Shown here: positions 1,722 through 21,793 of the stretch, piece after piece
How positions within the stretch are numbered: the first letter of the stretch is position 1
Layout of the letters: every line of letters begins with the position of its first letter
Source of the DNA: an archaeon GW2011_AR19
GTDB taxonomy: Archaea; Nanobdellota; Nanobdellia; Pacearchaeales; GW2011-AR1
DNA length: 45,538 nucleotides
Direction of reading: 5' to 3'
Assembly (NCBI GenBank): GCA_000806015.1
Contig: JWKY01000012.1
Span: 1 to 45,538, forward strand
Program-made: the position numbers and the translations under genes
The notes under the pieces: model-generated
Database searches by the model: none
Told to the model about the DNA's origin: nothing
The model's input: only the letters and a program-made list of their open reading frames with translations

Positions 1722-2366
1722 TTATTCCTTTTCTTCTCTATAATTTTCAATTTTCTTAATCTCTTCTTCAGAAAGAAGTTTTTCTATAGGGGTTCTTGAA
1801 TTCCCAGCAAGTCTTCCATCAGCCATTTTCAACTTATGAGAATATTCCTTTCTAACAAGTTCTTCTAATTGTCCTGAATTAAATTTGCTGAATTCTTTTT
1901 GGACTGATGAAAATTCTTTTATTCTTTCAGAAAAACCCTCTCCAAGCTGTTCTGCTTCTTTTTGACCTATCCCGTTATAAATTTTGCTTATAATTTTGTC
2001 GCAATAACGAATTTCTTCTGGACAGAAGTCATAAATCTCTAAAACATAATCTATTTTTTTTGTATCAAAATTAAATGAAAATTTCTCTTGAGATTCTATT
2101 GAAAAACCCGTATTTTTAACATAAATATAATCATAAACGCCATCATTATTTGTATCTCTATAATAGAACCAAATTTTTCCTATCCGGTCTTCTTTAGGCG
2201 AATCACTCAACCATGCCTCAACATATTTTTTAAATTCTGGATAACCAAGATTATTTGCATATTCCCCTGTTTCAAAATAAAAATTTAAATTTGGAAAAAG
2301 TTTTTCTTTTGAAGTTTGAGAGGCATCTTGGGCAAAAGATTTGTTTGTTGCTCCGAAAATTAAAAT
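1722..2366 (-). pseudogene. truncated duplicate of the secreted protein at 13799-15205
   Basis: From about 2366 down to 1722 the frame is nearly identical to residues 8 to about 220 of the 468-aa protein at 13799. The shared part covers the end of the signal peptide (GATNKSFAQDASQ), the calcium-loop-like DTNNDGVYD and the block FSERIKEFSSVQKEF. It lacks the beta-barrel half: after IENY it diverges and stops. No ATG, GTG or TTG lies at the expected 5' end, because the sequence switches to the direct repeats at 2365-2449. A TTG at 2210 could start a 162-aa cytoplasmic remnant. Both ends differ from the paralogue, so this reads as a decayed partial duplication; translation is doubtful. Confidence 0.65.
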
Positions 2367-2449
2367 TAAAATATACCTACTTTGGGTATAAAATTTACCG
2401 AAAAGTTTATAAGGATTAAAATATACCCAATTTGGGTATAAAATTTACC
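2365..2449 (+). promoter_or_regulatory. two 35-bp direct repeats 50 bp apart with a 19-bp palindrome
   Basis: The sequence attaaaatatac-N4-tttgggtata-aaatttacc occurs at 2365-2399 and 2415-2449. The second copy has a perfect 9-bp dyad around one base (TATACCCAA T TTGGGTATA, 2422-2440); in the first the left arm is degenerate. The dyad lies between a TATA-like AT-rich box and the ATG at 2450, where a repressor could block transcription of the downstream gene pair. Confidence 0.6.
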
Positions 2450-2878
2450 ATGACCTCAATAGGAGAGCACAAAAAAAAGATAAAAGAGCATTTAGAAGAA
2501 ATAGAAGACGCTATAGATGAAGGAATAGAAAAAAAGCCCATAACTATCGGATTTCATTGTTCCGCATGTTCCATCCAGTTTTTAGAATTATATCTGCATG
2601 TCATAAATAAGATTTCTATCGGGAAAATCGTTAAACACGATTGGTTTAAAAAACCAAAACCGGAACAAAAAAAAGAACCTTTAATAGAGCGAAAACTTAA
2701 TGTTAATTTTTCTAAAAAACAAGAGATTTATGATTTAATTTATAAAATAGAAGAAGAGAGAAATATCCTGATGTACGGCAAGCCGGTTAAAAATCAGATA
2801 AAAGAAATATTAAATAATTTTCTAAAATTAAAAGAAACTTTTTTTGGTTTATTTAAAAATGAAAATGTTAAAATCTAA
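2450..2878 (+). CDS. HEPN-like partner of an MNT nucleotidyltransferase (putative)
   Basis: A 142-aa, mostly helical, lysine-rich protein. The first helix is rich in Glu and Ile (HLEEIEDAIDEGIEKK), followed by FHCSACSIQFLELYLHVINK, which resembles the helix packing of HEPN proteins paired with small nucleotidyltransferases. I chose the ATG at 2450, directly after the palindromic operator, rather than the TTG at 2432, which lies inside the palindrome. It overlaps the next gene by about 20 bases, as toxin-antitoxin pairs often do. The HEPN assignment comes mainly from context and size; no RxxxxH motif is seen. Confidence 0.6.
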   Translation: MTSIGEHKKKIKEHLEEIEDAIDEGIEKKPITIGFHCSACSIQFLELYLHVINKISIGKIVKHDWFKKPKPEQKKEPLIERKLNVNFSKKQEIYDLIYKIEEERNILMYGKPVKNQIKEILNNFLKLKETFFGLFKNENVKI

Positions 2879-3473
2879 AGACTTAATCGCTTATGCATCA
2901 TCTTTTGTTTCATTTATTTTGTCAAAGATTAAGGCAAAAGAGATTATTTTATTTGGGTCTGCAGCAAGAGGAGAGGCAGGCAAAGAAAGCGATATTGATT
3001 TATTTGTAAATGTTGAAAATAATGAAAAAGAGATTAAAAAAACAATTAATAAAGAAATTAATAAATTCTATAAATCAAAAATTGCAGATGCTTGGATTTT
3101 AAAAGGAATAAAAAATCCTCTTGCAGTTAAAGTAGGAAATCTTGATAAATGGAAATTAAAAAGGAGCATTATAAGTGAAGGAATAGTTCTGTATGGAAGA
3201 TATAAAGAGAGTCCTGAAAAAATGAGAGGCTTTAGCTATTTTAATTTATCTTCAATAAAAAATATTGCAAAAAGAAATTTTATACTGAGAAAATTATTCG
3301 GCAGGAAAGAAAAGGGTTATTCTGCAGAAGGGCTTCTTAAAAAGACAAATGGAAAAAAATTATCAAGTTTATCTTTTGTAATTCCAATAGAGCATACTCA
3401 AGAGACCATAAATTTATTGAACGCTAATAAAATTGATTATAAATTTTTTGAATTTTGGAGTGATCAAATTTAA
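2859..3473 (+). CDS. MNT-type nucleotidyltransferase domain protein
   Basis: About 205 aa. The N-terminal domain has the polymerase-beta-fold signature ILFGSAARGEAGKESDIDLF, that is GSxxxG followed by DxD. The C-terminal half (after IVLYGRYKES) is basic and ends with a stretch around SSLSFVIPIEHTQETINLL that may be a helix-turn-helix. MNT proteins usually act as antitoxins that AMPylate or otherwise inactivate a HEPN RNase. Start ATG could be 2859 or 2865. Its 3' end overlaps the convergent E1-like gene by 4 bases. Confidence 0.75.
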   Translation: MKMLKSKDLIAYASSFVSFILSKIKAKEIILFGSAARGEAGKESDIDLFVNVENNEKEIKKTINKEINKFYKSKIADAWILKGIKNPLAVKVGNLDKWKLKRSIISEGIVLYGRYKESPEKMRGFSYFNLSSIKNIAKRNFILRKLFGRKEKGYSAEGLLKKTNGKKLSSLSFVIPIEHTQETINLLNANKIDYKFFEFWSDQI

Positions 3474-7790: not shown

Positions 7791-8360
7791 TCAGTAAAAT
7801 TTCTTAGCAACTTTCTCTATTTTTACTTCATTATTGATTAATTTTCCAAGTTCATACTCTTTTTTAGCCAAATTTATCATGCTCAAAGAGTCTTTGCGGG
7901 AATCAAATATCTCTTTTGTTCTTCTTACAAATGCTTCCTCAAAACGATTTTCAAGTTCGTCTTTTGTTAGTTTTTTCCCTCTATATAATACTTCTGGGGG
8001 AGATTTACAATAATCTATTTGGGAATAATCAATAAGTCCTAAATTATTATGAACAGTAAAAAATTCCACAATCTTCTCTATGTCTTGACACGCTCTCAGT
8101 TCTTCTGTTCTATGACCTAAGATTACTACAAAATCTTTTGTTTCTTTATTAATAAGATAACGCAGAGTTAGTAAATATTTCTCCCCATCTTTTAAGATTA
8201 GTGATTTTTCTATAGAATATGTTTCATTATAGTTATTATTTATACTATAATAAACTTGATATTCTTTATGTTGGTTTTCGGAATTTTGCGCATCCGCATT
8301 TCCAAAAAACCCAAGAGTTGCTACTGCGCCAATTAAGAGTTTGTTTTTTAGTGTTTTCAT
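7791..8360 (-). CDS. small secreted protein of the MKTLKNKLL family
   Basis: About 189 aa from the ATG at 8360, with a signal peptide (MKTLKNKLLIGAVATLGFFG, cut near ADAQ-N). The mature part is Tyr/Asn-rich with two lone cysteines, and ends in a lysine-rich helical region (FVRRTKEIF...DSLSMINLAKKEYE) that matches the C-terminus of the protein at 9146. DNA of the signal peptide and of the 20 bases before the ATG is almost the same as for that gene. It lies between two large surface-protein genes. Function unknown; upstream ATG 8384 is possible but adds residues before the signal. Confidence 0.7.
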   Translation of the reverse strand: MKTLKNKLLIGAVATLGFFGNADAQNSENQHKEYQVYYSINNNYNETYSIEKSLILKDGEKYLLTLRYLINKETKDFVVILGHRTEELRACQDIEKIVEFFTVHNNLGLIDYSQIDYCKSPPEVLYRGKKLTKDELENRFEEAFVRRTKEIFDSRKDSLSMINLAKKEYELGKLINNEVKIEKVAKKFY

Positions 8361-8401
8361 TATAAAGTTACTATAAATTTTCATATTTTTAAAGTTTTGT
8401 A

Positions 8402-9145: not shown

Positions 9146-9817
9146 TTATTCCGGCATTCCAGCTTTTGCTCTCTGAAAAAACACATTAGATATTTCAGGT
9201 TTAATTTCAACCATATTCCCATTTTCGTCTTCTATAATTTTCCACCTATTATATTCTTTTTTAAGCAAATTAACAAATTCTAAAGAATCTTGACATGAAT
9301 TTATTAATTCTTTAGCTCTTTTTACATATTCTTTACCGAATATTTCATAAGCTTCTTGTTCTGATGAAACTGATAAAGAAGATGCTAGAGTATCTTTTGG
9401 AGTAAATTCTATTCTTTCATAAAACATAGTACCGATAGGCACTTTCGTAAGTATTTCCTTGTTATGAGTAAATGAAAATTTTTCTTGCACCTGTTTTCCT
9501 GAATCTCTGATGTATTTTCCACTGGAATTTTCAATTTGGAGATCATTTATTACAGCTATTACAATTCTTGACTTATCCTCTAAATATATAATCCTCGCTT
9601 TTTTCCCGCCCAGTTCTCCCCAGAAAAGCTCTCTTTTAAAATGCCCCTCTTCAAAACAATCAAAAGTTTTATTATTATTTTCATCCCTGCACCCAAATGT
9701 TATCTTCATCTCGTCTTGATTTAAATTTTTAGACTCCGTATTTTGAGCATCCACATTTCCAAAAGCTCCAAGAGCTGCCATTGCTCCAATTAAGAGTTTG
9801 TTTTTTAGTGTTTTCAT
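9146..9817 (-). CDS. small secreted protein of the MKTLKNKLL family
   Basis: About 223 aa from ATG 9817, with a signal peptide (MKTLKNKLLIGAMAALGAFG, cut near VDAQ-N). The mature part begins with a calcium-loop-like DENNNKTFD between two cysteines and ends with a helical region (YVKRAKELINSCQDSLEFV, then KKEYNRWK) shared with the gene at 7791. An in-frame ATG at 9865 would add 16 residues. The bases upstream of the chosen ATG match those of the gene at 7791, supporting a copied promoter plus signal-peptide unit. Function unknown. Confidence 0.7.
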   Translation of the reverse strand: MKTLKNKLLIGAMAALGAFGNVDAQNTESKNLNQDEMKITFGCRDENNNKTFDCFEEGHFKRELFWGELGGKKARIIYLEDKSRIVIAVINDLQIENSSGKYIRDSGKQVQEKFSFTHNKEILTKVPIGTMFYERIEFTPKDTLASSLSVSSEQEAYEIFGKEYVKRAKELINSCQDSLEFVNLLKKEYNRWKIIEDENGNMVEIKPEISNVFFQRAKAGMPE

Positions 9818-9872
9818 TATAAAGTTACTAAATATTTTGGTGTTTTTAAATATTTGTTTATTCATTTTATTT

Positions 9873-12032
9873 TTATAAACCCCTATACCCTAATCCTGAT
9901 ATTGATATTGGTTTGCCTGCCCTTATATCTGGTCCCCTATAAAGAAGTTTTTTCTCTCCAATAAGTTCTTTTTCTTCCTGTTTTTGCGTTAATTTAAAAA
10001 AGCTTACAATTATTTTTTCAGAATCAGGATTTCCAATCCAATTAAAAGTCTTACCGCCGATTTTTTTTCCGTTGTAAGCGTGTGGTTTATATCCGCAATC
10101 CCCAAGAGATCTTGTTCTTTCTGAAATTGCGTCCAGCCATTGCTCATGAGTATAAAATTGTTTAAATCTTCTTTCTTGTGAATCTTTTCCGCCTCCGCAA
10201 TTTATTGTATTTCCTTTTTCAGCACCACCTTTCCAGTTATCAATTATATCTGGTTCGCCCGCTTTTTTCTTACAATAATATCCCTCTCTTTTAGAAAAAT
10301 ATCCATCTTGAACTTTAGTATCCAAATTTCCATCTTCAAGCTGAAATGCTTTTAAAGTTTCTATGTCTGCATATTTTTTATCATTCTTGCTTCCATACCA
10401 AGGAATTGCCCAGCAATTATCTATACATCTGTTTGAAGCTCTTTGAACATCATCTTTAGCAAATTCTTCTCTTTCTGTTCCTACGCCTGTTTCAAACAAT
10501 ACATTTTCTGTTATGCTTAAAGCTTTGCAATCATTTTTGCCGTCTGCTGTCCAAAACTCAGTTCCGGGAGTAATTAAAGGAAGGCAAGTTCCCTGCAAGT
10601 CATTATATCTTGCTGTGTTATTTTCATATATTTTTCCAAGTTCAGTTTCAACTTCATCAAGACCGTATCCAATAAACAATCCTCCCAGAGCATATCCTGG
10701 AAGCCATTTACAAAGGTCATTTTCTTCGCATGATTCTGCATTATTATTGTCAAAACATTTTGCTGCAGGATTATGATAACAAGCAGCAGATTTTTTTTCT
10801 GTAGCGGGATCTTTGCCTTCCCTACAAACATAATTTCTTGCAAAATCCCCGCATGTTTCAGGAATAATTTCTCCATCATAACATTTTAATCTTGTATATT
10901 CACTTCCCGGAAGATTATATGTATCAGATCCTCTCGCTATTTTTTCTTTTTCTTTTTTATCTTCATTTAGATTAAGAGGGATTCTGGGATAAACTCCTGG
11001 AGTTTTAGCGCACCAACTTTCTCCGTGTTTATATTCTTCATCTTCATAAACACAACCTAAATCTCTGCAAACATTATTTCCATATTTAGGTTTTGTAGGC
11101 ATTCCATTTTCTCCACTTTTATATTCAGCGCCTATAGTTCCTAATCTATAACTGCAATCTCCGCAAGTTGAACTTGGCGTGCTCCCAACAGAACAAGTTG
11201 GAGTTTGAATTTTTGTCCAATAATCTCCGACTAATGATCCCTCAAATCTTGACGAATCATAAATATTTGCGCGATTTCCGCAAGTGTCAACAAAATAAAC
11301 TTTATCTCTATAAATTATTGTTTTTGTGCTGTCTTTTGCGCAATCTGAAAGGTATCCTCCAGTATTAGGGTCTTGAGCGGTGCATAAAAGTCTGGTGTGA
11401 AAATTTCCCTTTAAAGAGCTGCAGCCGCTTTGAGTAGTGCGGACGCAATCTATTTTTAAGGTTGTTTCAGGCGCAGAACTTCCCCCTCCAAAAAGATTTT
11501 CAAAAAATCCTGAAGGCGCAGATTCGGAAGTAATTGCATTTTCTAAAACACAAGCACCTTCTGTTGGTGTTGTGTCTAAAGCAAGGCAGGCAGATTGTGT
11601 ATTTATATCAGCTCTAAAATTAACATTAACTCCATAATCACTCGCAAGACCTTTACATGTGGCCTGATTTACAAATGAAATTTCCTGTCCAAGAATGCAA
11701 CATCCCGGTCTGCAAGCCTGAATATTATCTTTAGGTTCTTGACTCCAACTATTTCCCTGCGATTCACAAAGTGCTTGAGGAGTATTTTGAGTGCATGTTC
11801 CGGAATCCCCGCTTATGCAAGTTCCTACTTTACAAAAGGCAGTTATTTGACATGCTTGTGGAGCCCATCTAAAATCTTTATCAACTTTATTTTCAGGAAC
11901 GTTCTGACACCAAGTGTTATCGGTTGTTTTTTCAGCGCAAAAAAGAGTTTCAGATGAAACAAAAGAGCTAAAGCTGATTAAACTTACAAATAAAATTAGC
12001 GAAAAAATTATCGCTCTTTTTTTAATTTTCAT
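9873..12032 (-). CDS. large cysteine-rich secreted protein
   Basis: A 719-aa protein with a signal peptide (MKIKKRAIIFSLILFVSLISF). The mature part is very cysteine-rich (about 40 Cys) with several repeats of a C...GCC / C..C pattern (RPGCCILGQ, CGDCSYRLG, CRDLGCVYED), which suggests many disulfide bonds. There is no C-terminal membrane helix; the end (RAGKPISISGLGYRGL) is glycine-rich. It lies just after the pilin-like 255-aa gene and upstream of the 826-aa gene, so the three may form one surface structure. No characterised homologue recalled. Confidence 0.75.
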   Translation of the reverse strand: MKIKKRAIIFSLILFVSLISFSSFVSSETLFCAEKTTDNTWCQNVPENKVDKDFRWAPQACQITAFCKVGTCISGDSGTCTQNTPQALCESQGNSWSQEPKDNIQACRPGCCILGQEISFVNQATCKGLASDYGVNVNFRADINTQSACLALDTTPTEGACVLENAITSESAPSGFFENLFGGGSSAPETTLKIDCVRTTQSGCSSLKGNFHTRLLCTAQDPNTGGYLSDCAKDSTKTIIYRDKVYFVDTCGNRANIYDSSRFEGSLVGDYWTKIQTPTCSVGSTPSSTCGDCSYRLGTIGAEYKSGENGMPTKPKYGNNVCRDLGCVYEDEEYKHGESWCAKTPGVYPRIPLNLNEDKKEKEKIARGSDTYNLPGSEYTRLKCYDGEIIPETCGDFARNYVCREGKDPATEKKSAACYHNPAAKCFDNNNAESCEENDLCKWLPGYALGGLFIGYGLDEVETELGKIYENNTARYNDLQGTCLPLITPGTEFWTADGKNDCKALSITENVLFETGVGTEREEFAKDDVQRASNRCIDNCWAIPWYGSKNDKKYADIETLKAFQLEDGNLDTKVQDGYFSKREGYYCKKKAGEPDIIDNWKGGAEKGNTINCGGGKDSQERRFKQFYTHEQWLDAISERTRSLGDCGYKPHAYNGKKIGGKTFNWIGNPDSEKIIVSFFKLTQKQEEKELIGEKKLLYRGPDIRAGKPISISGLGYRGL

Positions 12033-12135: not shown

Positions 12136-12903
12136 TTAACCAAACGGACCTATTATCAAACTTCTTGAAGCAAACTGAAATTTGTCATCGGTGGCTTTAT
12201 TTGTTATAACATAGATTGTTCCATCGGTTGTTCTCTTAGGTTTTTCACATTTTATTTCGGAATACAAGTCCATGTAGTAATCACAATCAGCATCTCCATA
12301 TCTTGTTTCCCAATTCAATATATTCTGTGCAATAGCTGTAAGTTCATAAAGATTATTGTTCAAAATTACTCTGAATGTTTCGCGTCTCTGAGTTTCATCT
12401 GCTTTTGAAGATGTAAATTCATAATCCATTGTTGTCACAATTCTTTGCGGAAGTAATTCAACTATCGTCTTTCCAGGTTTGAAATTAGCCACATAATTAT
12501 TTTCCACATAAGTATCTCTCAAAGATTTAAAACAAAAATCAACATCTTCTTCAATACTTTTTTTAATTTCATCTTCAATATGCTCTTTTAAAAAAGGTAT
12601 TTGAGTTACGCAGGGTTTTAAATCTTCATTTGTATAACATAAGAATTGCAATTCAATATCCTGATATAAAATACTTGGCGACGGCTCCAAACTCCCTCCC
12701 TGCAACGAGATTAATTCAACATTTTCTTTTATTGTATCTTCAAGACAGGTCTGAATAAAATTTTCAGGAGATTCAGGTTTTTCAAATCCAACAGCAGTTC
12801 TTAATTTAGGGATTGCAAAAAGCAAAGCAACTATTGCCACAACAACTATTGCAACGATGATAAAGATTGTAAGTTGAGCTTTTTTTCCTCTTTTAATTTT
12901 CAT
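12136..12903 (-). CDS. membrane-anchored protein with pilin-like N-terminus
   Basis: A 255-aa protein that starts MKIKRGKKAQLTIFIIVAIV and continues into a 20-residue hydrophobic helix. A short basic head followed by KKAQLT and the helix resembles archaeal class III (prepilin-like) signals and is common in DPANN surface proteins. The mature domain has about seven cysteines (TCLED, LCYTNED, PCVTQ, DADCDYY) and ends IIGPFG. As the first gene of the surface locus it may anchor or initiate assembly of the 719- and 826-aa proteins (inference). Confidence 0.75.
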   Translation of the reverse strand: MKIKRGKKAQLTIFIIVAIVVVAIVALLFAIPKLRTAVGFEKPESPENFIQTCLEDTIKENVELISLQGGSLEPSPSILYQDIELQFLCYTNEDLKPCVTQIPFLKEHIEDEIKKSIEEDVDFCFKSLRDTYVENNYVANFKPGKTIVELLPQRIVTTMDYEFTSSKADETQRRETFRVILNNNLYELTAIAQNILNWETRYGDADCDYYMDLYSEIKCEKPKRTTDGTIYVITNKATDDKFQFASRSLIIGPFG

Positions 12904-12993: not shown

Positions 12994-13311
12994 TCATTTT
13001 ATTTCAATTCCTTCTTTTACAGCTTGCTGAACAATGGTTATTTTATTTTTTAATTTATTAAATTCATTGGTTGTTAAGCAAATAAAATCAACAGGATAAT
13101 CAAAATTCCAATCTTCATAAAAACCAATTCCTCTCTTAAATGACTTTTTTCTTTTAAAATTATCACTCACAACAATTAAATCAAAATCACTCCACGGATG
13201 TATTTTGCCTTTTGCTCTGCTTCCAAATAATATCAATTTTTTAATTGGAATTTTCTTTTGCAATTTTTCTTTAAATTCCTTGACAATGTTTATATCTTCT
13301 TTTTTAGCCAT
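12994..13311 (-). CDS. MNT nucleotidyltransferase (antitoxin type)
   Basis: A 105-aa minimal nucleotidyltransferase with LILFGSRAKGKIHPWSDFDL (GSxxxG, DxD), ending QQAVKEGIEIK as in the copy at 8402. It overlaps the upstream HEPN gene (13290-13664) by 22 bases. Downstream (about 12905-12945) is a second, displaced copy of the coding sequence for KEGIEIK without the rest of the gene, a scar of duplication or recombination. Confidence 0.85.
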   Translation of the reverse strand: MAKKEDINIVKEFKEKLQKKIPIKKLILFGSRAKGKIHPWSDFDLIVVSDNFKRKKSFKRGIGFYEDWNFDYPVDFICLTTNEFNKLKNKITIVQQAVKEGIEIK

Positions 13312-13664
13312 TCTAAAATCTCCTTAGCAATAAAAATAAATTCTAAAGCATCTTTTTCTTTAAATTTTTTATAAGGGGGTTCATTTTCTAAAATTCCATA
13401 TCTGGATTCTATATACACTTTTGAAAGCTTTTCACAATTTAACAATAAATTTTCCGGCAATCCTATTTTCCTGCCAAGAATTACTAAATCATGCATTTTA
13501 ATAAGTTTCTTTTCTTTTTTAATAATTAATGCTTTTAGTCCTTTTTCAGCTGCTTGCTGGCACATAAAAGCGCATAAATAATAATCTTCGCTTTTCAAAC
13601 TATTCTCCGCGCTTTTTAAATCCCTTTTTGCCTGCTCAATCCAATTTCTAATTTCTTCTCTCAT
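13290..13664 (-). CDS. HEPN domain protein
   Basis: A 124-aa helical protein: MREEIRNWIEQAKRDLKSAE, then YYLCAFMCQQAAEKGLKALI, then MHDLVILGRKIGLP and ESRYGILENEPPYKKF. This is the common archaeal HEPN layout. It is the probable toxin (RNase) of the pair with the MNT at 12994. It diverges well from the HEPN at 8713 beyond the shared core motifs, so the two pairs were probably acquired separately rather than copied in place. Confidence 0.85.
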   Translation of the reverse strand: MREEIRNWIEQAKRDLKSAENSLKSEDYYLCAFMCQQAAEKGLKALIIKKEKKLIKMHDLVILGRKIGLPENLLLNCEKLSKVYIESRYGILENEPPYKKFKEKDALEFIFIAKEILEWLKKKI

Positions 13665-13798: not shown

Positions 13799-15205
13799 TT
13801 ATTTTCTAAAAGTGTATTTTAGTCCGGTGTTTATTATAGAATGTCTTGGAGAATAAATGATTCCTCTTCTATACAGAGTTTCCATCTCCCTCTTTAAACC
13901 AATCAACCCGTCAAAAGAAAGGGAAAGATTCTTTTCATGACCATTTTCTTTAGAAAAAGGAAAAATTTCAATTCCAAGACCAAGATAGAAAGGTCCAAAG
14001 AATTTTTTTGTTTCCCAAGAGCTTTTTCTGATTTCAAATGAAGATTGTCCTTTAATTCCGTCTTTAATATAATATTCTTCTACATTATCAGTTGTTGTTA
14101 TTAGCATTTTTTGTCTTAAGAATCCAAAACTTGTAAACATTTCAAAAGCAGGAGAAACATAACCCATATTCAATCCAAGACGGACAGTATTCTTTGCTGA
14201 AATATTTAGGTGATAGAACATATCGGAAACGAAGTATTTACTACCACTATATCCAGCCACTTCATTTTCGTAATAATCTCTTCCAGAAACTTCAAAATCT
14301 ATTTTTGAATTCATAAAAAACATATCAAGATCCATTGCAAATCCTTTTCCTTTTTTATTTGTTATTTGTGGGCTTATTCCAAAATATGACCCAACATGCG
14401 AACTTTTAGTATTTAGCACAACTCCGCCCCCAATTTTTAATTTTGCTTTTGGTTTTCTGGCTTCTTGTTCTATTCTAATTTTCTCCTGCTTTTCATATTC
14501 TATTTTTCTAGCTTCTTCTTGTTCTTTTTTAATCTTCTCTCTTTCTGGCTTTTCCCCGATATAATTTTCAATTTTCTTAATCTCTTCTTCAGAAAGAAGT
14601 TTTTCTATAGGGGTTCTTGAATTCCCAGCAAGTCTTCCATCAGCCATTTTCAACCTATAAGAATATTCTTTTCTAACAAGTTCTTCTAATTGTCTTGAAT
14701 TAAATCTGCTGAATTCTTTTTGGACTGATGAAAATTCTTTTATTCTTTCAGAAAAACCCTCTCCAATCTGTTTTGCTTCTTTTTGGTCTATCCCATTATA
14801 ACTTTTGCTTATAATTTTGTCGCAATTATTAATTGACTCTCGGCAATAGTCGTAAATCTCTAAAACATAATCTATTTTTTTTGTATCAAAATTAAATGAA
14901 AATTTTTCTTGAGAGTTTATTGGAGAACCAATCTTTTGAACATTAATATAATCATAAACGCCGTCCTCATTTGTATCTCCATAATAAAACCAGATGTTGC
15001 CCTTGTTATTCTCTTTAGGTTCATTAGTTAACCATGCCAAGACATGTTTTTTAAATGCTGGATGACCAACATAATTTGCGTATTCTCCTGTTTCAAAATA
15101 AAAATTTAAATTTGGAAAAAGTTTTTCTTTTGAAGTTTGAGAGGCATCTTGGGCAAAAGATTTGTTTGTTGCTCCGAAAATTAAAATTATTATAATCTTG
15201 TCCAT
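13799..15205 (-). CDS. secreted protein with predicted outer-membrane-type beta-barrel
   Basis: A 468-aa protein. It has a short hydrophobic start (MDKIIIILIFGATNKSFAQ-DA) as signal peptide, an N-terminal domain with the calcium-loop-like DTNEDGVYD, a helical charged stretch (residues about 210-250), and a C-terminal half of about 220 residues of alternating strands: KLKIGGGVVLN, YFGISPQI, TVRLGLNMGYVSPAFEM, GPFYLGLGIEIFPFS, SLSFDGLIGL. It ends INTGLKYTFRK, much like the last strand of bacterial outer-membrane barrels. Bacteroidota proteins often show both this barrel type and signals ending in AQ. In an archaeon it would be unusual. The first half is duplicated at 1722-2366. An in-frame TGA just upstream supports the ATG at 15205. 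Confidence 0.65.
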   Translation of the reverse strand: MDKIIIILIFGATNKSFAQDASQTSKEKLFPNLNFYFETGEYANYVGHPAFKKHVLAWLTNEPKENNKGNIWFYYGDTNEDGVYDYINVQKIGSPINSQEKFSFNFDTKKIDYVLEIYDYCRESINNCDKIISKSYNGIDQKEAKQIGEGFSERIKEFSSVQKEFSRFNSRQLEELVRKEYSYRLKMADGRLAGNSRTPIEKLLSEEEIKKIENYIGEKPEREKIKKEQEEARKIEYEKQEKIRIEQEARKPKAKLKIGGGVVLNTKSSHVGSYFGISPQITNKKGKGFAMDLDMFFMNSKIDFEVSGRDYYENEVAGYSGSKYFVSDMFYHLNISAKNTVRLGLNMGYVSPAFEMFTSFGFLRQKMLITTTDNVEEYYIKDGIKGQSSFEIRKSSWETKKFFGPFYLGLGIEIFPFSKENGHEKNLSLSFDGLIGLKREMETLYRRGIIYSPRHSIINTGLKYTFRK

Positions 15206-15498: not shown

Positions 15499-16050
15499 TT
15501 AATGTATTAATACGTCTTTTTTATTGAAATTTACTTTGAAATTATCAAAAAGCTCATCAAAAATCTTTTCAGAATTTAAAGGTGAGATAAAAACCTGATT
15601 AGCTACCCATTTTCCGTTATTGCTTTCAACAATTCCTTTTTCGCCTCTTTTTCCTCTTAAAATATTCACTAATCTTACTTTATTTGAAGGAGAAAGCGAA
15701 GTAAGAACATAGTTATACATTACTTTATTTGAAAACCTAAAATTCTCAGAAATAAATTTTTTGTTCTTTAAGCTGTATCCTTCTCTTATTAAAGTATGAA
15801 TAATAGATGGAGAATTAATAAAAAATTCTTTAGCAGTAATTACGCTTATATGAAAACCTTTTATTGAATTTATTTTTTCAAGAAACTCCTTTGAAGGCTT
15901 TTCGTATAATATCGCTGCAATGTCTACATCTCCTGGAATTAATTTTCCTTTTATAGCAGATCCAAACAGAATAATATCAATTACCTTTTTATCTGAAAAA
16001 AGATTTTTTAGCTTATTCTTTATTAATGAAAGATTTAAGATAGCGGGCAT
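15499..16050 (-). CDS. MNT nucleotidyltransferase with extra C-terminal domain
   Basis: A 183-aa protein. The N-terminal NTase motif is IILFGSAIKGKLIPGDVDIA, with the GSxxxG loop and a DVD metal site. The C-terminal half (from about residue 95) has YNYVLTSLSPSNKVRLVNIL, a probable winged-helix or helical DNA-binding segment, and ends in a Lys/Asp-rich tail. The same architecture occurs in the MNT at 2859, so the two may belong to one subfamily. It overlaps the upstream helical gene by 38 bases. Confidence 0.75.
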   Translation of the reverse strand: MPAILNLSLIKNKLKNLFSDKKVIDIILFGSAIKGKLIPGDVDIAAILYEKPSKEFLEKINSIKGFHISVITAKEFFINSPSIIHTLIREGYSLKNKKFISENFRFSNKVMYNYVLTSLSPSNKVRLVNILRGKRGEKGIVESNNGKWVANQVFISPLNSEKIFDELFDNFKVNFNKKDVLIH

Positions 16051-16342
16051 ATTCTCTTATTTTTATTGTATCCTCCTTTTTTATTTTAAAATTATAGGAT
16101 TTGACATAAATTTGGAATAATTCAGAAACTTTAGAGTAAATTTCTTTAAAATGCCTGCTTAATAAAGAAAATCTTTGAGAATGATTTTTTGGAAAGATTT
16201 TTATTTTTGAATAAATGAGATAATCGCATGTCACAACAATTGCCTTAAAAAAATCAGTTGCAGAGGCATTAAATCTTTCTTTTTTTAAGTTATCCTCTCC
16301 AGAATCTAAAAATTCATTTATATTCTCAATAATCTCTTCCAT
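16013..16342 (-). CDS. helical HEPN-like partner of the MNT at 15499
   Basis: A 109-aa all-helical protein (MEEIIENINEFLDSGEDNLKKERF, then ASATDFFKAIVVTCDYLIYS, NHSQRFSLLSRHFKEIYSKV). Size, helix pattern and overlap with an MNT gene fit a HEPN-type or HEPN-like toxin. The overlap and order match the other MNT pairs of the window. A RHFKEIY segment could be the catalytic site, but this is speculative. Confidence 0.6.
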   Translation of the reverse strand: MEEIIENINEFLDSGEDNLKKERFNASATDFFKAIVVTCDYLIYSKIKIFPKNHSQRFSLLSRHFKEIYSKVSELFQIYVKSYNFKIKKEDTIKIREYARYLKSFINKE

Positions 16343-16519: not shown

Positions 16520-17263
16520 ATGAAATTTGATTTTAAATTAGCGCCTATTAAATACGATGTTGAAAAAATATATCATTTTTTAAACCCTGATGAAGAAGAT
16601 TGGAATTGGAGCAGATATATTAAAAATTGTTATTCTGAATTAAACAAAATGGATTCAAAAGAAAAAATTAAAAAAATTTTAATAAAGGTTAGAGAAGAAA
16701 ATAAAAAAAAGTTACAAGATAAATTATTTAATTATAAAAAAGAATTTGAAAAAATTTCTAATAAAATTATTTCTGAATTTAAGGAAATTTTAGAGATAAA
16801 TGCGATTAAAACCCATAAAATAGATATTCTAATCTCATTAAGCCCAATAAATCCTTATAATTTAGAAAAAAAAGAATTTTCAGTGTATTGGAATTTTCCA
16901 ATTAAAGATATGATTGCTATTTCTATACATGAGATTTTTCATTTTATTTATTTTGAAAAATGGAGGGAAATTTTTCCGAAAACAACTATTAAAGATTTTG
17001 AACCTCCAAGTTTAATTTGGCATTTAAGTGAATTGGTTGTTCCAGCAGCATTAAATGATAAAAAAATTCAAAATGTTTTTAAATATCTTCATAGAACTTA
17101 TGAGGAATACACTAAACGAAGAATAAATAAAAAAAGTATAAATAAAAAAAGTATAAATGAAATTATCTTAGATTTATATAGTAAAAAAAGGCCTTTCTCA
17201 TTATTTATAAAAGAAGCGTATAATTTTGTATTAAAACATGAAAAAGAGATTCAAAAGGTTTAA
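16520..17263 (+). CDS. HExxH metallopeptidase-like protein next to RiPP-like locus B
   Basis: A 247-aa protein with no signal peptide. The motif SIHEIFHFIYFEKW (about residues 136-149) is a zinc-protease HExxH. Downstream WHLSELVVPAAL supplies a possible third ligand (Glu). The C-terminus has a short tandem repeat (INKKSINKKSIN, from an 18-bp DNA duplication near 17121-17156). The rest is lysine-rich and helical. It converges on the radical SAM gene, overlapping its end by 4 bases. If it is part of locus B, it could cleave the leader or act on the product; this is inference from position only. No closer family recognised. Confidence 0.6.
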   Translation: MKFDFKLAPIKYDVEKIYHFLNPDEEDWNWSRYIKNCYSELNKMDSKEKIKKILIKVREENKKKLQDKLFNYKKEFEKISNKIISEFKEILEINAIKTHKIDILISLSPINPYNLEKKEFSVYWNFPIKDMIAISIHEIFHFIYFEKWREIFPKTTIKDFEPPSLIWHLSELVVPAALNDKKIQNVFKYLHRTYEEYTKRRINKKSINKKSINEIILDLYSKKRPFSLFIKEAYNFVLKHEKEIQKV

Positions 17264-18555
17264 TTTCTAAAAAAATAAGAACACATCCAAGAATCCGGGG
17301 CATTGATAGAATCATTAAAAAATAAAGATTTTGCTTTACATCCTCCAGCGCAGACATTTAATACTTTACAATCTTTACATTCCGAGCTGGAGATATATTC
17401 TTTTTTTCTAAAATAATTGAGTAATAGAGAATTTTCCCAAATATTCGTTAATGATTTTTGCTTAACATTTCCAAGAATATATTTTCCAAAGTTTAACATG
17501 GGACAAAGAGATACAGAGCCGTCACTTCCTAAATAAAAGAAACTTTCCCCTAATCCACAATAGCTATTTATCTTTCTTTTTTGACCCTCGGGAGTTTTAA
17601 TAAATAATTCTCCATCAAATACTTTTTCATATAATCTTGAAATTTTTTTCATTGCCCCCATTTTATCTCTTAAATTATAAGTAGGAATTTGAACGCCTCT
17701 TCCCTCTGGAACTATTTCATCAAAAGAAATATCATTTTTATCCATCCCTAAATATTTAAGATAAATCAATGTATTTTTTATTGAATCATAAGAATCATTT
17801 ATGTCTTTAAATAAAACTATATTTGCCCTTGTTCTTATTCCTTGTTTTAACATTTCTTCTAAATTATCTAAAACTTTTTTATTGTCTGTTTTTCTTATCT
17901 TTTTATATTCTTCTGGATTGACAGAATCTATACTCACTGCCACAAATTCTGGATTAAGCAAGGATAATTCTTTTATATGTTCTTTTTCCATTAAAATCCC
18001 ATTTGTAAAAATACTAAAATCTATCATAGAAGAGTATGTTTCTTTGAGAATATCAAATAAGTCATTTTTTATAAAAGGCTCTCCCCCAGTTATTCTAATT
18101 TTTAATGCTCCTAATTTTTTAATTTCTGAGATTAAATCAAAAATATTCTCTTTTTGCAATTCTTTTGTTTTAGTCTGAGGATTATAACAATGAATACAAT
18201 TGAGATTACATTTTTTTGTTATCTCAAAAAACACCGAATCTAAAGAATATACGGAATTATCTTTATTTATAATTCTTAATTTACTTTTTTCATCTTTTGC
18301 AGAGTATTTTATAATGCCTTTTTTGTTTAATTTTTCAATTATGTTGAGAGTCTTTTCTAGAATCTCGGCTTTATTATTCTTAATATTATTTGAAATTTCT
18401 TCTATCGTCTTTTTTCCATCACATTTTTTTAATATTTCTGTAAGATCTTGATTGCAAATTATATGCTTTTTAGAAATTAAATCATATAAAATAGAACCAG
18501 AACGAGTTAATTTAAGTATGCTCCTTTCTAAATAAGGTCTTTCATTTATTTCCAT
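17260..18555 (-). CDS. radical SAM/SPASM peptide-modifying enzyme with PqqD-like domain
   Basis: A 431-aa protein in three parts. Residues about 19-86 form a PqqD/RRE-like helical domain (IEEISNNI, EKLNKKGIIKYS) that binds a leader peptide. The radical SAM core has CNLNCIHC (C116, C120, C123) and the SAM-binding GGEP (157-160). The SPASM domain has seven cysteines in the classic order: C333, C351, C393, C396, C402, C406, C425. Such enzymes introduce thioether or carbon-carbon crosslinks in sactipeptides, ranthipeptides and related RiPPs. The gene follows a Cys-rich 60-aa peptide gene by 14 bases on the same strand, its probable substrate. Confidence 0.85.
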   Translation of the reverse strand: MEINERPYLERSILKLTRSGSILYDLISKKHIICNQDLTEILKKCDGKKTIEEISNNIKNNKAEILEKTLNIIEKLNKKGIIKYSAKDEKSKLRIINKDNSVYSLDSVFFEITKKCNLNCIHCYNPQTKTKELQKENIFDLISEIKKLGALKIRITGGEPFIKNDLFDILKETYSSMIDFSIFTNGILMEKEHIKELSLLNPEFVAVSIDSVNPEEYKKIRKTDNKKVLDNLEEMLKQGIRTRANIVLFKDINDSYDSIKNTLIYLKYLGMDKNDISFDEIVPEGRGVQIPTYNLRDKMGAMKKISRLYEKVFDGELFIKTPEGQKRKINSYCGLGESFFYLGSDGSVSLCPMLNFGKYILGNVKQKSLTNIWENSLLLNYFRKKEYISSSECKDCKVLNVCAGGCKAKSLFFNDSINAPDSWMCSYFFRN

Positions 18556-18874: not shown

Positions 18875-19010
18875 CTACTCGAACCGACACTCAAAATATT
18901 TTTTACTAATGCTCAATTTAAGTTTGTTTCCGTGTCAGTCCTCTACTCGAACCGACACTCAAAATATTTTTTACTAATGCTCAATTTAAGTTTGTTTCCG
19001 TGTCAGTCCT
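18875..19010. repeat. 68-bp tandem duplication, two copies, overlapping the end of pcna
   Basis: The unit from ctactcgaaccgacactc to gtgtcagtcct occurs at 18875-18942 and again, identically, at 18943-19010. The second copy contains the stop codon of pcna (19003-19005). Identity of the copies suggests a recent event or an active slippage site. It contains gaaccgacac and gtgtcag, a weak inverted repeat that may act as a transcription end for pcna. Confidence 0.85.
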
Positions 19011-19737
19011 CGGATTCCACTCTCGGGGCAAGAATAAAATTAAGCTCCAGATTATCAATTTTCAAGTCTATTCTCAAAGGATGGTCGTTTGCAAAATTTA
19101 AAATTGTTTTATCGCAGAGTTTGCTTCCTTTCATGAATTTGTCCAGATATTCAATGCTGTATCTTGATTTGCAATTTTCTGCTTTAATAACTGCTTCATC
19201 GCCTGAGAATTCAGATTTTGCTGAATTCAAATTTTTTGCTTCAATTATAAAATTATTATTTTCAATAATAAAAGAGCAGGCATCAGCGACAACGGCGCAG
19301 TCTTCAACAGCGTCAATTAAATCAGCGGAATTCATCTCAACTCTTGCGCTGAATTCTAAGTTTGGAATTTCTTTATCTTCGCTTTTTATGTCAATTAAAT
19401 TCAAGGTGAAATTCCTTTTGATTTTATCGGGAATTTCTATGTTTAATTTATTTTCATCTCTTTTTAATATCAGCGAACTTTTTATTCCTGCCCTCCTTAA
19501 AATTTTTTTCAAGTCTTCTAAATTCACCCCCCAAATTTCTTGTTTTGATTTGTCAAGTTCAAACTGCGAGAACGCATCTTTTGACAGAAAAAATCTCACC
19601 ATCGCGACATTTGCAGGATCAATAGCAACGACACTCATTCCGGAACTGTCTATTTTAAATTTAACTTCTATTACAAGAGCCGAGATAAGTTCAACGACTT
19701 TAGATAATAACGCGGGGTTTTCAAGTTTTATTTGCAT
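19003..19737 (-). CDS. pcn: DNA polymerase sliding clamp (PCNA)
   Basis: A 244-aa protein of the usual archaeal PCNA length. Recognisable are the start MQIKLENPALLSKVVELISA, the block IDSSGMSVVAIDPANVAMVRF, the interdomain region after LNIEIPDKI, and the end LEINFILAP-type segment (LELNFILAPRVESED). PCNA forms a ring that tethers DNA polymerase, ligase and other enzymes to DNA. A single copy is seen here. The last residues (ESED) and stop fall at the edge of a 68-bp tandem duplication. Upstream, 19738-19862 is AT-rich with no gene, and holds the promoter. Confidence 0.95.
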   Translation of the reverse strand: MQIKLENPALLSKVVELISALVIEVKFKIDSSGMSVVAIDPANVAMVRFFLSKDAFSQFELDKSKQEIWGVNLEDLKKILRRAGIKSSLILKRDENKLNIEIPDKIKRNFTLNLIDIKSEDKEIPNLEFSARVEMNSADLIDAVEDCAVVADACSFIIENNNFIIEAKNLNSAKSEFSGDEAVIKAENCKSRYSIEYLDKFMKGSKLCDKTILNFANDHPLRIDLKIDNLELNFILAPRVESED

Positions 19738-20533: not shown

Positions 20534-21793
20534 ATGACTTTCAAAGAAGAAAGAATCAGAAAAATAACTAACTTGTATTATTCAAGGCAGGATATACAAA
20601 AAACAATTTGTGACTTTTCTAAAAATAGGGAAATCTGTCCGCGATATTTTGAAGGTTTTGGAAAACGCCCTGATTCTTTTCAATACCCAAACGATGTTTT
20701 TGAAATGGTAAAAAAAGGAGCAACATCTTTTAATTGTTCAGAAGAATTATGGGAAGACCCAATGAAAATTGTTACAGGAATGTCAGAGAAGCAGGCAAAT
20801 CAGCTTCGGATAGGCTGGGACTTGATTATAGATATTGACAGCAAATATATTGATTACAGCAAGATTTGCGCAGAAATAATATTTAATTTTTTAAAATTTC
20901 ATGGAATTAAAAATTTCGGGGCGAAATTTTCAGGCGCAAAAGGATTTCATATAATCATTCCATGGAAGGCGTTTCCAAAAGAAGTGAATGGGATACAAAC
21001 GAAAAATATGTTTCCCGAATGGCCGAGGATAATGATAAAATATATAATAGAATCAACAAAAAAAGATTTAATTGAAAAAATTTCAGATATAGAAAGACCA
21101 AATAAATATGTAAAAAATTTCCAGGCTTCTAAAGAAGTTATGCCCGATATTATTCTTGTTTCCCCCCGCCATTTATTCAGAATGCCTTATTCTCTGCATG
21201 AAAAAACAGCTTTAGCAAGCATTGTTATAGACCCTGAACAAATTTCAAAATTTGAGCTAAAAGATGCAGATCCATTAAAAGCAGAAGCAAGAAATTTTAT
21301 TCCGAATATAAAAGAAGGCGAGGCTTCAGAATTTTTAATTCAAGCATTAGACTGGCATAGGGAAAATTATGGAAAAATAGAATCTTCTGAAAAAAATAAA
21401 GAAGAATTCAAGCCAATGAATTTAGGAGAGATTTTTGATAAAAATTTTCCTGGCTCAATCAAAAAAATTCTTGAGGGGCTTGGCGACGGAAAACAAAGAG
21501 CGTTGTTTATTTTAATAAATTTTTTCCGTTCAATAGGAATGAAAAGAAATGAGCTTGAAAAAAGAATTTATGACTGGAACAAAAAAAATAATCCCTCGCT
21601 TAATGAGAGCCGTATTAAATCCCAATTTATTCAGAGTTATAAAAATAAAATTATTTTGCCTCCAAATTTTGACAAGGATTATTACACCGGCATCGGAATT
21701 ATCCCGACAAAAGAAGAAATTCGTTATAAAAATCCAGTTAATTATTTTGTTAAAAAAACACTTCAAAATAAAAATAATTTTTCAGAGGAATAA
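20534..21793 (+). CDS. archaeo-eukaryotic primase small-subunit-like protein
   Basis: A 419-aa protein. The catalytic DxD lies in WDLIIDIDSKY (D100, D102) and the nucleotide-binding motif in SGAKGFHIIIPW (133-144), as in primase small subunits and related primase-polymerases; a later SPRHLFRMPYSLH contains another active-site region. The C-terminal 100 residues (KRQALFILINFFRSIGMKRNE) are helical, like a primase C-terminal domain. It is longer than a typical PriS (about 350 aa). No large subunit gene is in this window. It synthesises RNA/DNA primers if it is the replicative primase. Confidence 0.8.
   Translation: MTFKEERIRKITNLYYSRQDIQKTICDFSKNREICPRYFEGFGKRPDSFQYPNDVFEMVKKGATSFNCSEELWEDPMKIVTGMSEKQANQLRIGWDLIIDIDSKYIDYSKICAEIIFNFLKFHGIKNFGAKFSGAKGFHIIIPWKAFPKEVNGIQTKNMFPEWPRIMIKYIIESTKKDLIEKISDIERPNKYVKNFQASKEVMPDIILVSPRHLFRMPYSLHEKTALASIVIDPEQISKFELKDADPLKAEARNFIPNIKEGEASEFLIQALDWHRENYGKIESSEKNKEEFKPMNLGEIFDKNFPGSIKKILEGLGDGKQRALFILINFFRSIGMKRNELEKRIYDWNKKNNPSLNESRIKSQFIQSYKNKIILPPNFDKDYYTGIGIIPTKEEIRYKNPVNYFVKKTLQNKNNFSEE

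Follow-up and report, generated by a model that had tools for sequence, protein, structure and literature searches.

Transmembrane beta-barrels are held to mark diderm bacteria and the organelles that descend from them. In the envelope tethers of diderm Firmicutes (OmpM/Slp type), an N-terminal domain and a helical stalk precede a C-terminal outer-membrane barrel. The outer membrane pore protein of the archaeon Ignicoccus, Ihomp1, is built of helical subunits and forms no beta-barrel. Two membranes have been imaged in ARMAN and SM1 archaea (PMC4110969, PMC4122167), and the DPANN archaeon ARM-1 carries an S-layer in place of a lipid outer membrane (PMC11329633). Cultivated DPANN archaea live with archaeal hosts (PMC11291902). 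Enrichment in the host-attached fraction of large size has been reported for Pacearchaeota, and Gram-negative hosts have been found to bear ultrasmall cells that lack an outer membrane (PMC7906910). In the open-access literature we found no report of outer-membrane-protein (OMP) type barrels as a class in DPANN, the only hint of an OMP-like barrel there being a possible relative of the PopA superfamily in Altiarchaeales (PMC12228718).

The locus compared here with these systems lies in a stretch of 45,538 nucleotides (the window), which makes up contig C12 of a genome of 678 kb and carries PCNA, primase and GatB-type genes. According to the ORF list and its translation, an intact reading frame of 468 aa with an ATG start occupies 13799-15205 (-). 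Its product is a predicted exported barrel protein. Residues 1-19 (15149-15205, -) form a putative Sec signal peptide that is weakly hydrophobic and ends in FAQ|D; read by eye, the signal and its cleavage site are MDKIIIILIFGATNKSFAQ|D. The orthologue P0003 has a fuller signal. The rest of the minus-strand gene falls into an N-terminal domain (residues 20-205, 14591-15148), a charged helix or stalk of about 44 aa (residues 206-249, 14459-14590, from the DSSP assignment of the model) and a predicted C-terminal eight-stranded OMP-type barrel (residues 253-468, 13799-14449). The N-terminal domain, modelled with low confidence, gave no significant match in Pfam and NCBIfam searches. It is duplicated at 1740-2378 (-), near 1722, as a second copy that covers residues 3-228 at 80% identity and has neither an ATG start nor a barrel; the truncated copy at 1722 mentioned in the earlier note is thereby confirmed. 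Immediately upstream of this copy, at about 2390-2450, stand a palindrome, ATACCCAAATTGGGTAT, and a second, imperfect version of it, which may mark an operator or the junction of a rearrangement. At its other end the protein reads ...NTGLKYTFRK. Within it, NTGLKYTF (residues 459-466, 13808-13831, -) follows the pattern polar-x-G-x-x-hydrophobic-x-hydrophobic and resembles a C-terminal beta-signal with an aromatic end. Both the signal ending in Ala-Gln and the terminal GLKYTFRK, pointed out earlier, are read directly in the translation.

The proposed barrel was examined through its sequence pattern and through structure models. In the C-terminal half, alternating hydrophobicity exceeded that of shuffled sequences (mean, p=0.005; segments, p=0.016); in the N-terminal half it was no higher than in the shuffles (p=0.5-0.7). 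The AlphaFold2 model of the window protein, for which a 5-row alignment served as input, placed the helix at 206-249 and strands at 254-467, which number eight if 384-401 and 406-414 are counted as one. Confidence in the barrel was moderate, with pLDDT mostly at 60-78. With VIA-align, the best solved match of this model was OmpA (Z 14.9, 2.2 Å over 150 aa), accompanied in the top ranks by OprF, OmpW, OprG, PagL, NspA and OmpX. Soluble PsbO ranked below the OMPs (Z near 9 for the window model, 9-10 overall). A paralogue barrel from a sister MAG, about 32% identical to the window barrel, was modelled independently and yielded eight main strands at a pLDDT of 87.2. Its fold search returned OmpA at Z 16.1 and NspA at Z 15.9, and its 30 best solved matches (OmpA, NspA, OprF, OmpW and designed barrels; Z 16-10) were all transmembrane. 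Most strands of the paralogue are two-faced: a hydrophobic face (IVAV, LVLF, LAVAF, LIYL), which presumably points outward, is opposed to one of Gly and charged residues (RKGGT, DGGAS, SGKTS). The amphipathic belt measures about 9 residues and the strands run to as many as 31, as would befit an OMP whose membrane belt is short and which extends beyond it in a polar part.

An OMP barrel fold of the C-terminal domain is therefore well supported by the modelling, and the outer-membrane-type barrel that the earlier note had seen in this half is borne out by two structure models whose best matches are 8-stranded OMPs. A jelly roll or another beta fold, the alternative raised at the time, is ruled out by these two models and the fold searches. 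The window barrel itself had no significant match in Pfam and stayed below any threshold, so that we call the gene OMP-type by its fold and do not file it under OMP_b-brl. A sequence search of the window gene against solved structures likewise gave nothing useful. Across the archaeal barrel proteins, the motif GxxOxO was present in the last 14 residues of 9 of 22, as against 5 of 201 controls (p=2.4e-7), an enrichment that is somewhat biased, as part of the 22-protein set was found by a Pfam model covering the last strand. Ten of the 22 ended exactly in F or Y; controls ending in F, Y or W numbered 26 of 201 (p=0.0006).

Does the gene belong to the archaeon? The window holds an archaeal PCNA gene (19003-19737, -; Pfam PCNA_N/PCNA_C) and, as an archaeal anchor, the gene of the primase small subunit (20534-21793, +; Pfam DNA_primase_S; orthologue in L004). 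In an independent MAG of the same genus (G002 = JAUYHR01, 'Nanoarchaeota archaeon isolate C24_maxbin.164_sub'), a 58% identical orthologue of the barrel gene lies directly beside PCNA and primase on contig C89. On contig C125 of that MAG, a further barrel gene is directly followed by orthologues of the downstream window genes at 12136-12903 (-) and 9873-12032, their order matching that of the window. The home genome, too, has a further member of the barrel family, on contig C7. Mis-binning or a chimera is ruled out by this independent MAG with its archaeal PCNA/primase synteny. Archaeal residence of the gene, as the earlier note had argued, is well supported by the synteny together with like barrels on archaeal contigs; an origin specifically from Bacteroidota is not supported. 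No relative turned up in viral contigs scanned with a profile, and a viral origin was dropped. The dN/dS of the window gene was 0.24-0.48 and that of its barrel 0.55 (NG86), compared with 0.06-0.07 for PCNA. The barrel gene is under purifying selection yet fast-evolving, and evolution faster than that of PCNA is expected of a contact surface.

Several other features of the neighbourhood were recorded. Pairs of a nucleotidyltransferase gene and a small helical (HEPN-like) gene flank the barrel gene at 12994-13664 and 15499-16342 (-); the downstream gene order in G002 is without this insert. An additional nucleotidyltransferase-like ORF lies at 2844-3473. A Radical SAM/SPASM protein with a weakly PqqD-like N-terminus, possibly peptide-modifying, is encoded at 17260-18555 (-). 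Three more short secreted proteins with Ala-Gln-type signals (1123-1716, 7791-8384 and 9146-9865, -) match no Pfam family and show no sign of a barrel, so that the signal style is a shared one in the home genome.

The next question was how far such barrels extend beyond the genus. Against a collection of 84,980 genomes, the single window protein found no match, and an alignment query found the sister MAG as its sole match. With a profile of the window barrel, close relatives were confined to the genus; the weak matches in G081 and G194 were rejected as relatives, being cytosolic-looking proteins. The Pfam family OMP_b-brl, by comparison, matched 14 of the 180 genomes from the order, with 7 exceeding its curated cut-off, and 12 of the 371 in a phylum-wide draw, and the control genomes that it matched were bacteria with an outer membrane. 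Four archaeal relatives of the class scored above the cut-off. The barrel proteins of the order sit on contigs of up to 351 kb, and their distribution is patchy. Weak OMP_b-brl matches in G122 (a false-looking frame) and G148 (a short contig, possibly contamination) were set aside. These order-wide matches make the barrel gene one of a recurring class, and a reading of it as one isolated oddity finds no support. With hhalign, neither the window barrel against other archaeal barrels nor the barrel groups among themselves showed a significant link, for which reason we do not claim that all archaeal barrels descend from one ancestor. In G080, a second exported protein (L046:5209-5952, -) ends in FVRYNY and has no Pfam match; it is possibly another barrel.

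Two gene layouts recur around these barrels. In one, a gene for a protein with a signal and a C-terminal barrel stands directly upstream of, and often overlaps, a gene for a surface protein with its own signal, mostly Ig-like, at an intergenic distance of -11 to +47 bp. This layout spans about eight genera in five families. Its loci are C7 in the home genome (G000), C111 in G002, and those in G087 (a 351-kb contig with a thermosome nearby), G085, G134 (PCNA and primase nearby), G080, G034 (another family) and G106; those in G332, G470 and G240 have weaker barrel scores or no demonstrated Ig domain. The Ig partner of C7 is homologous to that of G106 over 432 residues (E 1e-30), which, through synteny, connects the window genus with the rest of the set. 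The window copy itself has no Ig partner next door. In the other layout, a small protein of 186-194 aa with a signal and a barrel is encoded beside the gene of aRF1, the release factor of archaea, in G108, G106 and G002 (three genera). The signals of the barrel proteins are weakly hydrophobic (0.9-1.7; KD19 of 1.06 in the window protein) and those of the Ig partners strongly so (2.2-2.8). The difference is systematic and might stem from export by separate routes. Three of the Ig partners have a strong transmembrane helix at their C-terminal end.

Bacterial OMPs are inserted by a BamA-type machine, and we searched for its counterpart. No Omp85/BamA was found in G000, G001 and G002 (genomes 75-93% complete), and the wider searches gave matches in 1 of 180 genomes of the order and 1 of 371 of the phylum-wide draw. 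The one from the order, a protein of 1035 aa in which an Omp85 barrel accompanies a TolB-like propeller and an HExxH peptidase-like region, is encoded in G046 on contig C39 (L018:3431-6538, +); its neighbours, named by eye from their translations, are Cdc6-like and PolD-like genes. This is an Omp85-type gene in an archaeon, which is notable in itself. With the bacterial insertion machine missing, either these archaea would have an outer membrane that has so far gone unrecognised, or they would seat the barrel in another cell. Small OMPs are able to fold into bilayers unaided in vitro, which makes insertion free of BamA possible. Lipobox-like neighbours prompted a search for LspA, which is absent in the window genus; a bacterial-type LspA above the cut-off occurs in two genomes of the order, in L023 (G033:C15:36609-36986) and L024 (G034:C31:14876-15244), and lipobox-like proteins are encoded at L022:12844-13311 and L045:4334-4726.

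Taken together, the window gene probably encodes a Sec-exported DPANN surface protein that an OmpA/OmpW-type eight-stranded barrel anchors or tethers in a second membrane. We infer the membrane, the insertion route and the function as follows. After export through Sec, the barrel would fold into a further bilayer, beyond the cytoplasmic membrane, either spontaneously or with the help of an unknown factor in place of BamA, and would act there as an anchor. The helix and the N-terminal domain, on the same side as the barrel termini, would reach back toward the archaeal surface and, in the paralogues, also to the Ig partner. As all three project from the same side of the barrel, such a protein could bridge the archaeal surface and the bilayer, and would be a tether between the two. 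Whether the class as a whole makes true transmembrane beta-barrels, often encoded with Ig-like proteins and seated without BamA in a second membrane, we regard as an even call.

This explanation takes two versions. The barrels could be residents of an outer membrane of the archaeon's own, with N-domain and Ig partner tying them to the inner membrane like an OmpM tether; the unusual envelope suggested in the earlier note would be of this sort. The termini, N-domain and stalk on one barrel side recall periplasm-facing OMP domains, and the C-terminal helices of the three Ig partners, the inner and outer membranes reported for ARMAN and SM1 archaea (PMC4122167, PMC4110969) and the Omp85/TolB-like protein on an archaeal contig in one genome of the order point the same way. 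However, BamA is missing from nearly all genomes examined, the occurrence is patchy and in ARM-1 an S-layer takes the place of a lipid outer membrane (PMC11329633), and we place this version somewhat below even chances. Alternatively, the barrel of an episymbiont might be planted from outside, as a grapnel, in the membrane of a partner cell. Fast evolution and paralogues, an adhesin-like Ig protein encoded next door, a beta-signal retained despite the absence of BAM, and the attachment to hosts of Pacearchaeota, which may include this genus, and of ultrasmall cells to Gram-negative hosts (PMC7906910) would all suit this version, which we nevertheless consider rather unlikely, given that insertion from outside is no established OMP route and that the hosts of cultivated DPANN are archaeal (PMC11291902).

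Outside these two versions, the protein might be a soluble or periplasmic barrel of the PsbO or lipocalin kind that enters no membrane. PsbO and other soluble barrels do match, at Z 9-10, but about 30 transmembrane barrels score higher, the Gly-rich polar strand face is as in OMP interiors, the C-terminal beta-signal is present and the family matched by the relatives is OMP_b-brl, all of which makes a soluble barrel improbable. Least probable is a recently transferred or contaminating bacterial gene with no role in the archaeon: a signal and fold of bacterial style and the patchy distribution would fit, but the gene adjoins archaeal PCNA and primase in the second MAG, it is under purifying selection, and the modules are conserved in several families.

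Were such barrels truly a recurring set in archaea lacking BamA, either outer membranes would be commoner in DPANN than thought or these symbionts would anchor in the membranes of other cells. Both answers bear on host attachment by DPANN and on barrel assembly in vivo without Omp85, and the barrel genes and the two-gene module offer specific handles for testing both.

Compared with known systems, the predicted fold is common to the bacterial 8-stranded OMPs (OmpA N-terminal domain, OprF, OmpW, NspA, OmpX; OMP_b-brl PF13505; Z 14-16), which also share amphipathic strands, a signal peptide and a C-terminal beta-signal; some of the archaeal relatives score above the cut-off of this Pfam family. 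Unlike those OMPs, the window protein is encoded in an archaeon without detectable BamA, its barrel stands C-terminally after a unique N-domain and helix, a paralogue gene adjoins an archaeal Ig-like gene, and the window copy falls below the Pfam thresholds. The modelled order of N-domain, helix (206-249) and barrel (254-467) resembles OmpM/Slp, but the predicted barrel has eight strands where OmpM is a trimeric porin, a Pfam search found no SLH domain in the window protein, and peptidoglycan is not expected here. The PopA superfamily comes near through its possible relative in Altiarchaeales, a hint of an OMP-like barrel in DPANN, but PopA is pentameric, lipid-trapping and porin-like. With Ignicoccus the common point would be an archaeal second membrane, its Ihomp1 pore being helical in contrast to the predicted beta-barrel here. 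The fold is already known; what is new is its setting, in an archaeon, without BamA, behind an N-domain and a helix, and with an Ig partner.
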